A stretch of 64,000 nucleotides of DNA, from positions 71,427,472-71,491,471 of the forward strand of contig CM055092.1 in assembly GCA_029204225.1 (NCBI GenBank), written 5' to 3'. The notes beneath the pieces are model-generated. The model was not told the DNA's origin. It worked only from the letters and a program-made list of their open reading frames with translations, and made no database searches. Source of the DNA: Diphasiastrum complanatum (Eukaryota > Streptophyta > Lycopodiopsida > Lycopodiales > Lycopodiaceae). This document shows, piece after piece, positions 25,430 through 35,900 of the stretch. The stretch's first letter is position 1. The number at the start of each line of letters is the position of its first letter. The position numbers and the translations under genes are program-made.

Positions 25430-26252
25430 CATGTTTATGTTGGGGGAAAACAAAAAGATAACTCGCGTTAATCATATTATATATGAAATACTTGGATATC
25501 TCACATGAGTAGAACTCACACAACCAAAGAAGCTTGGGATATATTGGTTAGCCTTTTCATAATCCAAGATGTCATCATAAGACTACTTACCCAACGGGGT
25601 TGGCTCAACTGGTTAGCTTGGCATCCAAAGTTTCTTTGGTCCCAGGTTCGAGCCTCCCCTTGGAAACCAAGAAGCATCATAAGACTACTTTTGTTCTTTT
25701 AATTGATCAAATTGATCAATAATTAATTTATGTCTTTGCTTGATTAACTAGGTGTAGAGGTTTCTCCCATTGACGAGGCTTCTTGATCATGATGATGTTT
25801 GCTTAAACAATTTTGGCATTTATATGCTCTTTTGAATAGAAGTTTGGAGAAAAATAAATAAACTAGAAATATTTGGAAATCCTTGATTTTTCACTCCAAG
25901 AAAACACCTCATTATTATGAAGATTGATGTATTTTGGCCCTCGAATCAAGTTGTTAAAAACCAAAAAGATTGCCATTTGTAGCATGATTGAAGTAAAGTT
26001 TATAAAATTTGGGAAATTTGTAGTTGAATGGACTACTTGCCATTGAAAATCATAGCCATGGTGAAGGGAACTAAGGAAATCTATGAAGGAAGATGGACTT
26101 TTTTCAGAGCCTTTGTAGTTGGGAATTTCAAGAGTTCTCCATGAAATTTCCATAAATGCTAGCGTTAAAAATAGTCTAAAAGGAAAATTTTGAATGGCAA
26201 AATCAAGTCTTCTTGAATAGGATTTTTTAAATGAAGATATGAATGGGTTCAA
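25430..26252 (+). pseudogene. Old copia gag remnant
   Basis: The segment around 25502-25590 reads SRTHTTKEAWDILVSLF, the conserved copia Gag (UBN2-type) motif, followed by IIRLL. The SINE-like 86-mer interrupts it, and LLLFF continues after it. Beyond 25700 only scattered similarity remains, with many stops. Flanking LTRs were not found. Confidence 0.5.
25573..25690 (+). mobile_element. 86-bp tRNA-like retroposon, copy 1 (with target duplications)
   Basis: The body is 25589-25674, exactly 86 bp, flanked by perfect 16-bp direct repeats catcataagactactt (25573-25588, 25675-25690). It contains an RNA polymerase III A-box-like TGGCTCAACTGG and a B-box GGTTCGAGCC. The ends CCAACGGGG and CCCCTTGG can pair like a tRNA acceptor stem with one bulge, and CCAAAG/CTTTGG form an anticodon-arm-like hairpin. 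No A-rich tail is present; the 3' end reads AAACCAAGAAG. It sits inside a copia gag remnant. Confidence 0.85.
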
Positions 26253-26534
26253 AGGGTGAATGGCACTTCAATTTCACTAAAGATTTTTAGATTGAAGGAC
26301 ATGGGACGTATCGAAGAATGTCATTTTTTTTTCCACTTCAAAAAAACAATGCTAATAGGGACATTTTTGGCCAATTTTAGATGTTTTCCTCATATCCAAT
26401 GTGTTCCTTATTGGTATTGACCAACGAAGGGCGATATGAACATATACTTGCAAGTAGAAAAGGTTGGGCTATAGAGTAAGCCTTGGAACTAGTACGTGTT
26501 TTATCTAGCTACACCATTTTGAAGCCAATTTGTG

Positions 26535-26654
26535 GATTGGTATTTTGATGATTTGTCATTGTTGTTATACATTGAGTGGTAAAACACTATAAAAGCGAAA
26601 ATAAAGGTTTTACATGGCTAATTTGGGAGACTTGATCCACAACGGGAACGAGTA
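26535..26654 (+). repeat. Direct duplication, copy 1 (228-bp spacing)
   Basis: About 120 bp from gattggtattttgatgattt to gggaacgagta, repeated at 26763-26881 with few substitutions and a small deletion. Confidence 0.9.
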
Positions 26655-26762
26655 ATTTGGATGGCATTTCCAATCATGCATATTATGCATTCACATTATG
26701 GTGACTATTTAGTCGACGAATATTGTACTTGACAAAGTGGTGGCTTGGTACACAACTTTGTA

Positions 26763-31913: not shown

Positions 31914-32061
31914 TGCCACAAAAGATATAGATACTCAAAGATATGCAATTTTGGAGCTGCAGGCTGTTCAAATACACAAAAATATTGTTACCATACTACA
32001 AAAGATCTAGGCACTTTAAAAATTGCAATTTTTGGAGCTGCAGGTTGTTCAAGTACACAGG
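31914..32061 (+). repeat. Tandem duplication, ~90-bp period
   Basis: Two blocks share acaaaagat, tgcaattttggagctgcagg, ttgttcaa and tacaca. Confidence 0.75.
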
Positions 32062-32912
32062 AAACCATTCTGGGAGATGTGAAACAGTTAACACCTTAAA
32101 TTGTGAAGAAAAAGCAAGAGTACCAAGACCTCCTATATTCTCTCCCCTTAAAGAACATGAAGAGCTTCTTTAATCTGAAGAAGCTTTATCATGCAATCTG
32201 GCCCCAGAGAAAATTCTAGCTACAGTAGCTACCTTGCTGCAAAAATAAGTTAGCACATTCCAGGAAGTATTGAAAAAAGCAGTAGGAAACCACCAATGTA
32301 ATTCTATACAAAGAATATGCCTTGCTATTGCAGAGCAAACTGGAACCTTAAGAAATCGCCCTTTAAGCTCATAATAATCATCTCATTTAATAATGACACC
32401 GCCTAATTTTGATCAATCGCCTACTGCAAAGACGTCATGATTTCAAACCTAGAAAAATAAATTTTTAGATACTTCATGCTAGCCCATAATCCAGATCATA
32501 CCACATTTGGCAGAAGATGCAGTCGCTGGATAACATTTTCAAATTCATGTTACAATTTCTTTAACAAATTAGTGGATGTCATACATAGCTCGACTGAACC
32601 TGAATGGCACAGGAAAGATTTGCCACATGAGCGCGAGTCGGAGTCCAGGCAACTTGGACTATAATACCTAAGAGACCATTATTGATCTGCTCGAAAAAAT
32701 GGTGTACTGAATTGCAACAAGGTTAGGGAGGATCAAGAGTTGCATGAGGTATGTACTAAGGAGAAGCAAAAAATGACGTTGCAATCCAGCTTATTGATTA
32801 TCTTCCAGGATAGTAATAATTATCTATCCCTCAAGCACTGATTGCCCAAAAATTTTCATCTGGCTCCTACACCATGAAAGCAACTGGCAACTAGTTAGAA
32901 GTGAATAAAGTT

Positions 32913-35900
32913 TCAAGTTTTGATATTTTCTGAAGTCAAACCACATCCATTATTTGCAGCACCATTTGAATCTGCAGAGAGTGTGTTGTAACCCCAAGGA
33001 TTTTTACTTGCCCAGTTCCACTGGTCGCGACACATCTCCTCTACCCCATACTTGGCTCTTAAGGACAATGGCATCACATAACAAGTCAATGTTGGTCATG
33101 CCTTAAAAATGATTGACTCGTAAAGTAGTCCACATAAAGAATGTCTGGTTAATGGAAACATCAGCTGCATGCAATCATGGAATAAACAGAAATGCCCAAT
33201 ATAAAAGAAGCTGCACATTTTAGATTACATCTCCATACAAATACTCACTTCCAACCAAGTTCACGCTCAGCCTTTTGAGTACTGGCATATACTTCAGCAC
33301 AATCTCCTGGTCGACGTTCAGCCACTCGATAGGGTATTTTCTGCAAGTAAAAAGCAACACAGATTTTGATGTTGCTATGTCCTAATGGATAGCAAAGAAA
33401 AGCTCCTTAAATCATTAACCTCCTGAAATGGCTCTGTGAGCTGTATATGTACCTTTCCAGATGCTTTCTCAAAAGCTTCAATCATCTCCAACACAGATAC
33501 CCCTTTCCCTGTCCCAAGATTGTAGGCAGCACAACCTGTTGGATACAAATTTTCTAAGAAAGTCAAAATCAAGAGAAAAAGAAGCCAGCGTGAACCTCTG
33601 CTATGAAGGTACCTTGCTGGTGGCGGAGTGATTTGTACTAACAATAGTAACACAGTTGTTGTCACCTTGTCTAAAGATCAAAGATTCAGAATTGTGGTAT
33701 CTTGGGAGTTTCTATGAAACAATTTCATTATGTAGAAAGGAACCCAGCAGGGTTGGCTCATTTGGTTAGCTTGACATCCAAAGTTTCTGTGGTCCCAGGT
33801 TCGAGCCTCCCCTTGGAAACCAAGAAGCATTATCTAGAAAGGAGCGCAGCAATCTTGACTCTCTAATCAACAAGAAATTGCATTGCCACGAATCTCCTGC
33901 ACTAAACTAAACCCAGTCAATTCAGTCACTTAATCTCTAGTTCCATTCTCAACTTCCAACAAGTTACCTGCATTAGTACTGTTAAAAAGCTTTCGCAGAG
34001 CTGCCAAATGACCATCTGCCAGATCCATTACATGCACATAGTCACGGACCTGGCAGTAATAAGAAGATTAGTTGACTTCAAGAATTAAATTTATGTCACA
34101 CTCCATCTGCAATGCAATCAGCCACTGGCACCCTGGTAAGATTGTATAGCAGCAACTTAGCACCTCAAAAAATCAGCATAGAACTATATCCATCTAACTG
34201 CAAGTCTGAAAATAGACAAGGGAAACACTAGAGAAGCCATTATATCATAAGCCAAAAGCCAATAAATGTTTGTGAATCTTTTAAGAGCTAAAGGGTTCAC
34301 AAGTCTTAACATAAGTTACTCACTCCAGTCCCGTCTTTGGTAGGGTAGTCATTTCCATAAACTATCAACTCCTTTCTTCGTCCAACGGCCACTTGTTGCA
34401 CAAATGGCATCAAATTGTTTGGTACACCTCTAGGATCTTCCCCGATAAGACCACTGGGATGAGCAGCTACTGGATTGAAGTACCTCAGCAATATAATTCC
34501 CCACTCATGATCGGCTTTTTGCATATCGCACAACATGTGTTCCACAAAAAGCTGCATGCAGCAAAATATCAAAAAGCTGCTGAACATTTGACAATGATGG
34601 CTACTTACATGGCAGGCAGAATGCGATGGTCAAATATTTGCAAAATCTAAGTTATCTGACTTACTTTAGTTTGACCATAGGGATTAACGGCTTCCCGGGG
34701 AAAATCTTCCGTACATGGGACCGACTTCGGTTGACCGTAGACTGTGGCGGATGATGAAAACACAAGCTGAAAATATGAAGATAACTGATCAGAGCAGTAA
34801 AACAATAACGAGGACACATCATGACTTAAGTGAGATCAATTTTCAGCAAAGTCTGAAATAAAAGAACAAAGGCCTTTGATAGAATTTTGCGAATCAGATC
34901 TGAGCAGCTGAATAGAGTTTTGGGTGGCTTAGTAAGAATCTTAACAGCAAAGCAAGCATAAACTTTAGTTGGATTTTCAATTCAGGCGAACCTTTTTACA
35001 CGAGTAAGTTGCCATAACTTCGAAGAGATTTAAGGTGCCAACAAGATTGTTGTAATAATAGAGTAGTGGATTTGTCACACTGGCACCTACAGCCTTCAGC
35101 CCAGCAAAGTGCATAACTGCATCGAACCTACAAGAGTTGACAATCAACAATTCAAAGTGAAGACAAGATTCTGAATTCCCACATGACAAAAAGCAATTTA
35201 ATACTACAAAAACAACTCGGAGAACTTGTAGAAAATGCACCGAGTCAGGAAAATTCAAAACTACCTTGCAGTTGAAAAAACTTTCTCCAAGGCATTTTTG
35301 TCACAAAGGTCCACCTACAAGCCGATACACAACTCTCATAAGAGCTCGAATGTGAAAGTTAAGCTATTCAGAGACTCTGATCCCCATTACATACATTTCT
35401 GCTCTTTGAAACAATTGTACTTACTTCAGCCACTTGATAAACCTCCACAAAATGTATGATAGGATTTGAACCTGTTACTAAAGTTCTCAATTCCTTCACA
35501 ATTTTCCAAAGCATATTATACCCTTGACTAAAGAAGCCCTAGTTCAACTGAGCACCAGAATTAGTCTGATCTAACAACCAGGCATGAACTCGTGATATCA
35601 GCACCACATTACAAGTTATCTGGTGAAAGCAACATCTTTGAAGATCGAAAAACGATTCAGAAAAGAAAATGTAAGGAGCTCTAGATATCTTCAATTTTGT
35701 CTGGGAAATAACGATATGAGCAGGATTTAAATATAACATGTCTATACTCCAAAAAACAACAGAATGTGTACAATGACTTGTGGATCGATTAAATGCACTA
35801 GTGCGCTATGCACATGTTAGAATTGAGTGATTTTGGAAACACAATTATGCGACGACAATAAGGGCTCAGAATCTTTAGTAGGTTTTACCAGGCAAAACCG

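Follow-up and report, generated by a model that had tools for sequence, protein, structure and literature searches.

An 86-bp SINE-like family without tail or body in a clubmoss genome, and its arrays at shared target sites

Three copies in the window and the family at large

The stretch of the Diphasiastrum complanatum genome analysed here (64,000 bp, C1:71427472-71491471; hereafter the window) contains three copies of an 86-bp sequence, each lying between target-site duplications (TSDs; Table 1). They belong to a dispersed family that is very likely a short interspersed nuclear element (SINE) mobilised by a long interspersed nuclear element (LINE), and whose members recurrently stand head-to-tail at one and the same target site. 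Copy 1 (full sequence ACCCAACGGGGTTGGCTCAACTGGTTAGCTTGGCATCCAAAGTTTCTTTGGTCCCAGGTTCGAGCCTCCCCTTGGAAACCAAGAAG) and copy 2 are 93.0% identical, copy 3 is 86.6% identical to copy 1 and 82.9% to copy 2 (82 columns), and the pairwise BLAST E-values among the three range from 7e-19 to 5e-33; neither BLASTN nor nhmmer detected a further one in the window. An earlier note, made from the sequence of this DNA alone, had described these three copies on their respective strands, with 6 differences in 86 positions between copies 1 and 2 and TSDs of 16, 16 (one mismatch) and 17 bp, all of which we recovered (TSD identities of 16/16, 15/16 and 17/17, each duplication starting with CAT on the sense strand). 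The RNA polymerase III (Pol III)-type promoter that it proposed is likewise present as a putative box A and box B in copy 1, assigned by matches to what we take to be the consensus motifs (TRGCNNARYNGG for box A).

The whole genome (1,744,706,496 bases in 5,176 contigs; C1 comprises 101,634,788 bases) was searched. When at most 3 mismatches were allowed, a 44-nt core gave 4,719 matches (2,314 forward and 2,405 reverse; none with the reversed pattern as control), and the exact 25-nt 3' end occurs 3,505 times. A DNA-similarity search of the genome with copy 1, of a type that skips common words, returned no candidates. The family is thus short, dispersed and of high copy number on both strands, as SINEs are. 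In twenty 10-kb stretches (18 across ten contigs, two adjoining the window) one full copy was present. We read 55 loci, which represent 59 of 100 exact core matches listed (the 60th being copy 1); sampling by exact core matches favours young copies and arrays. A first set of 68 ends yielded 61 unique copies, and a second set of 15 loci yielded 14 unique ones (loci are numbered with the prefix L). TSDs of at least 10 bp flank 59 of the 61 unique copies in the first set, compared to 83 of 4,865 mismatched flank pairs scored equally, so chance is excluded as their source; TSD lengths in this set are overlong where the duplication abuts a similar element. TSDs were also found at 13 of the 14 unique loci of the second set. 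In the first set the downstream TSD starts with CAT in 55 of 59 cases (CAA in 2, CAC and CGT in 1 each), and in the second set it does so in all 13.

The copies read end in ...CCAAGAAG directly against the TSD, with rare base changes (e.g. AAGATG, AAGAAA), and no simple-repeat 3' tail, be it of A, T or other composition, was seen in them. The last model position (86) is reached in 30 of the 30 loci fetched for the core. Truncation is seen at the other end: 5'-truncated copies with TSDs occur at L032, L038, L055 and L066 and as array members at L027, L031 and L069, and 5' truncation combined with an intact 3' end and a TSD is what target-primed reverse transcription, and hence mobilisation by a LINE, is expected to leave behind. 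Copies at L021 and L024 appear internally deleted rather than 5'-truncated. Among 54 aligned copies 20 are identical across all 86 positions; as most aligned loci had been chosen by their match at 44 of these positions, the other 42 are the informative ones, and even counting just these the identity indicates recent activity. Further claims of the earlier note thereby stand at the level of the genome, namely a retroposon family of fixed length without A-tail or 3' body, a real preference for CAT and activity over time; longer copies with unique 3' bodies, or copies devoid of TSDs, did not turn out to be the rule. Several pairs of loci have the same insertion within the same flanks (L049/L054, L026/L056, L038/L045, L067/L068 and L024/L037, the last pair differing by a small deletion inside the element); these are duplicated genome segments or uncollapsed haplotypes. 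An ARF-like ORF next to one of the copies read (L045:10-606) matches three D. complanatum proteins (O6H91_01G071100, 071600 and 071800) at 76, 65 and 63% identity, none of them identical to it; longer proteins from other organisms had higher total scores at lower identity.

Table 1. Coordinates of the 86-bp copies, their parts and the adjoining element in the window
Feature	Position	Strand	Remark
Copy 1, 86 bp	25589..25674	+	matches the majority sequence of 54 aligned copies exactly
Left TSD of copy 1, CATCATAAGACTACTT	25573..25588	+
Right TSD of copy 1	25675..25690	+
Putative box A of copy 1, TGGCTCAACTGG	25601..25612	+	match to presumed motif TRGCNNARYNGG
Putative box B of copy 1, GGTTCGAGCC	25645..25654	+	match to presumed motif
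3' inverted repeat of copy 1, CTTGG-AAA-CCAAG	25659..25671	+	followed by AAG
Copy 2, 86 bp	33742..33827	+
Left TSD of copy 2, CATTATGTAGAAAGGA	33726..33741	+
Right TSD of copy 2	33828..33843	+	one mismatch
Copy 3, 86 bp	31235..31320	-	diverged; 3' end AAGATG
Left TSD of copy 3, CATAAAGAATCAATATG	31321..31337	-
Right TSD of copy 3	31218..31234	-	17/17 identical
Different 103-bp stretch	31115..31217	-	directly 3' of copy 3; box-A-like and box-B-like parts by eye
Third copy of the TSD of copy 3	31098..31114	-	diverged (14/17); closes the 103-bp stretch

Target motif, variants and predicted RNA fold

The sequence preference at the insertion site extends to both sides of the nick (marked by a bar) and reads approximately T-n-n-Y-T-Y|CATT, with 9.35 bits over 15 positions (49 sites). 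From 39 initial sites three rows were dropped (two with an element as left context and one duplicate); in the remaining 36, position -1 is a pyrimidine in 35 and position -6 a T in 29 (p 1e-9). The 13 later sites show the same preferences, with Y at -1 in 13/13 (p 1.2e-4), T at -6 in 9/13 (p 0.005) and CAT in 13/13. Three features are additions to the earlier note: the upstream half of the motif, the frequent arrays at single sites and the second element beside copy 3.

At least four variants of the element recur, namely A (the majority), B (CAACAGGG...CAGCTGG...CTCCTC), C (TGTCTTAGTTGG...TGACATCC...TCTCAGG) and D (CTCAAGGGTG...TTATCTTGACATCC...TCTCAAG). Their differences lie mostly within the first 60 nt, and variants with shared changes are themselves dispersed. 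Among 21 representatives, conservation is complete or no lower than 90% at every one of the last 11 positions (AAACCAAGAAG). The 3' inverted repeat is a candidate signal for the reverse transcriptase; in some copies (L042c, copy 3) it is broken, the 5' arm being affected.

For copy 1 the predicted minimum-energy fold is a single long rod, at -32.5 kcal/mol compared to -24.85 in shuffles (z -2.1, 9/200 as good). Across 21 distinct copies 93.5% of the cells keep the pairing of this rod, compared to 92.8% in shuffles (12/500 as high). Columns 34/55 carry G-C in 11 copies and A-U in 8, columns 39/51 show one double-sided change, and 9 cells are changed on both sides versus 4.3 in shuffles (1/500 as high); neither the number of changed pairs (2 vs 1.9) nor that of pair types (14 vs 16.7) exceeds the shuffle control. 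Covariation thus lends modest support to the predicted rod. The earlier note had suggested a tRNA-derived RNA. The tRNA-like traits of the head are limited to the boxes and an acceptor-like stem, and a cloverleaf finds support neither in tRNA models nor in the predicted fold. Rfam returned no family at its gathering score (tRNA, 7SL and 5S included) and its tRNA model no match for copy 1 at E up to 10, and ARAGORN found no tRNA.

Arrays at single target sites and how they may arise

Many sites hold more than one element. Among 45 unique sites that had not been picked for their arrays, 13 carry elements head-to-tail with one TSD between neighbours (9/26 among L021-L050, 1/5 among L054-L060 and 3/14 among L061-L075); L051-L053, which had been picked for their spacing, are excluded from this count, and the second element of L074 is cut by the end of the locus. 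The members are mostly different variants. At L042 four different elements alternate with five copies of the TSD CATTTTCTAGAGCT, L049 joins variants C, A and a relative of C, L051 joins B, D and A, and the array at L028 comprises ten elements. A strict junction pattern matches 272 times in the genome and its reversed control not at all; among the junctions listed, lengths lie between 10 and 21, 14 being the most frequent value (42/100); they are coordinate distances that include the TSD plus any extra letters and count some non-adjacent pairs and some duplicates. On C1, 8 of 83 places among the first 100 exact 3' ends hold multiple copies, each on a single strand and head-to-tail. TSD length varies within some arrays (L031, L051). 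The SINE array at L028 seems to be on its way to becoming a small tandem repeat, and a 199-bp junction spacing as found there recurs on C1 at 15422778-15423704, 77815213 and 77985493. In the window, the 103-bp stretch beside copy 3, which terminates in GGTTTGAAAATCAAAAAA, is apparently an older insertion into the same target and perhaps represents a second, older SINE family with the same target.

To assess the relative age of array members, divergence over the first 13 nt was compared between the left and the right outermost TSD pair of those 13 arrays that had been read to both ends. It is greater in the right pair in three arrays (L027, L028, L051) and greater in the left pair in none. The left member is nearer to the family consensus in 9 of the 13 arrays, with equal distances at L053, which is no more than suggestive of an order since distance to the consensus is not age. 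At L027 the TSD of the left copy, which resembles the consensus, is perfect and takes in 2 nt (CC) from the start of the right neighbour; this neighbour is truncated and diverged, and its outer TSD has 2 mismatches in 15. At L028 an extra AG at a 5' junction reappears in the TSD further left, and at L051 an extra GC does the same, a reading that is less certain there owing to base changes in the outer TSD. Copy 3 likewise has an intact TSD (17/17) next to the diverged outer TSD copy of its right neighbour (14/17).

Alongside the fixed 3' end, the TSDs, the 5' truncations, the dispersal on both strands, the two-sided target motif and the same-site arrays, which are direct observations, we favour as reasonably probable the overall reading of a body-less, tail-less SINE, mobilised by a LINE, whose arrays grow by sequential insertion into the left TSD. 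Following the usual SINE model, Pol III would transcribe an 86-nt RNA from the internal boxes, and a LINE endonuclease would nick the bottom strand at ...YTY|CATT. The exposed 3' end ...AATG could then prime at the end of the element (CTTGGAAACCAAGAAG), reading would start at one fixed position, and a cut of the second strand about 14-17 bp away would produce the TSD. The new part is that further elements would enter the left TSD, so that arrays of the form S-E2-S-E1-S would extend mainly in the 5' direction and collect mixed subfamilies. The left TSD would be preferred because there alone the upstream half of the motif survives in its original form; the right TSD follows AAGAAG, a poor match to the motif, and new insertions would therefore go left.

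An entire array might also be laid down in one integration, if the reverse transcriptase, having copied one RNA, went on into the overhanging strand of the TSD and the ...AATG end so created primed on the next RNA, repeatedly. Such a course would explain why a single exact TSD surrounds several variants at L042 and L049, why orientation is head-to-tail in 8 of 8 multi-copy places on C1 and why 10 of 13 arrays show no difference in divergence between their outermost TSD pairs, and it would make repeated hits on one site unnecessary. Against it, neighbouring junctions do not resemble each other in length more than random pairs do (mean difference 1.39 vs 1.79, p 0.13, with the limits on these lengths given above); moreover, members of different age at L027 and at copy 3 and the leftward recurrence of junction letters at L028 and L051 speak for separate events, which leaves a single-event origin improbable. 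Tandem duplication, i.e. unequal crossing-over between TSD copies, together with gene conversion, appears no better placed as the main source of arrays: the 199-bp two-unit repeat in L028, the same spacing near C1:77815213 and C1:77985493 and two identical copies at L053 would fit it, but in most arrays read clearly different variants share one site, as at L031, L035, L042, L043, L049, L050, L051, L069 and L074, and we regard it as an unlikely main source. That we are looking at tRNA genes, or retropseudogenes of one tRNA, instead of a mobile element is suggested by the two boxes; given the missing tRNA matches in ARAGORN and Rfam, the rod-like predicted fold and the dispersed variants with shared changes, it is very improbable. 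As main models, all three were rejected. Sequential leftward insertion is preferred on account of the ages at L027 and copy 3, the recurring junction letters, the divergence of the outer TSDs and the lengths of neighbouring junctions.

Several observations weigh against this preference or against parts of it. The outer TSD pairs are tied in 10 of the 13 arrays, the left member is further from the consensus at L047, L051 and L069, and the uniform TSD length at L035, L042, L043, L047 and L049 is also explained by a single event. The TSD is below 10 bp at L017 (7 bp) and L039 (9 bp) and absent at L063, and a C at position -7 of the target (16/36 in the first sites, 3/13 in the later ones) was not replicated. 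No LINE with the same 3' end was found in the fetched loci or genome-wide. Finally, assuming independent positions and uniform access, the motif preference would make about 9 pairs coincide among 4,719 copies, 40 among 10,000 and 162 among 20,000; this expectation lies far below the 272 junctions, themselves inflated by duplicated segments and unequal crossing-over, and the re-insertion step hence needs a further factor. Local accessibility and recruitment by the resident Pol III unit are candidates for raising the rate beyond that set by the motif. A self-targeting SINE, in which the resident Pol III complex or the nascent RNA recalls the LINE machinery to the TSD just upstream, is a tentative idea that we consider rather doubtful; if true, it would account for the excess of re-insertion over the motif-based prediction, and arrays would record the order of subfamily activity.

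Partner LINE, related systems and other repeats

As to the partner, GGAAACCAAGAAGCAT without the upstream Cs of the SINE occurs at 6 places in the genome, and a LINE match that is diverged or confined to structure is still conceivable. A noisy search for longer TSD-flanked insertions in the fetched loci yielded no recognisable LINE among those listed; L008 5741-9577 resembled such an insertion, but its sole open reading frame (ORF) of at least 100 aa does not look like a reverse transcriptase. Next to the window, L001:7962-8681 is a LINE remnant with an RVT_1 match. Window 16745-17887 has no Pfam match and is 66.9% identical to this remnant over 136 aa. The 3' parts of the LINE remnants run into long (CT)n, on the reverse strand, at about 15950-16030 of the window and at 5900-6070 of L001, and other CT runs in the window may be LINE tails too. 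With 3' ends unlike that of the SINE, these (CT)n-ending remnants are not obvious partners.

Rodent ID is a simple SINE without a body, with an A-rich tail and L1-type TT|AAAA targets; like it, the 86-bp family is little more than a tRNA-like part, and unlike it, the family has a fixed tailless end and a YTY|CATT target. The Dictyostelium TRE elements are autonomous non-LTR (long terminal repeat) elements that target by distance to tRNA genes. With these the family shares insertion at a fixed place beside a Pol III unit, a habit that would build arrays there as well; in the 86-bp family, however, the target shows a clear sequence motif, and what lies next door is a further copy of the SINE. 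R1, TRAS and SART are LINEs with sequence-specific endonucleases and one defined genomic repeat as target; in the 86-bp family, too, target sequence is needed on both sides of the nick, in this case as a degenerate motif at dispersed sites. With plant tRNA-derived SINEs such as Au, p-SINE, TS and ZmSINE2/3 (listed in PMC3747384) it has in common the internal Pol III boxes, the TSDs and the short dispersed copies. In those of the seed-plant SINEs tabulated there that we compared, ends are (A)n, (T)n or (TTG)n, those paired with a LINE have a 3' part in common with it, and a 3' hairpin of ZmSINE2/3 is thought to be recognised by a stringent L1 LINE (PMC3747384); in the 86-bp family, unlike these elements, we found neither a repeat tail nor a body nor a LINE-like end.

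In the literature searched, which lay mostly outside subscription journals and repeat databases, we found no description of clubmoss SINEs and no mention of this family, which may nonetheless be known in those sources; no report of same-site or tandem SINEs was found in it either. We regard the family as a genuine, large and recently active one of a known kind, SINEs, in which the tailless end, the target motif and the mixed same-site arrays are unusual. With 86 nt and neither tail nor body it is near the minimum sequence for a retroposon, and thus offers a clean system for what a LINE reverse transcriptase needs; the motif and the mixed-variant arrays make endonuclease specificity and re-insertion testable directly from sequence. 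Going by the description of AnnoSINE (PMC8825457), this suggests that structural SINE finders that seek a low-complexity tail may miss such families.

The window contains other repeats. A Ty3/Gypsy-type element at 3729-8531 (+) extends over several frames, with gag, reverse transcriptase and RNase H assigned by Pfam and an integrase-like ORF by eye. A protein search with one ORF of the window gave no match. Copia-type pol fragments lie in both orientations at 40225-43123, with RVT_2 at 42045-42644 and a further fragment, recognised by eye, at 40225-40809.

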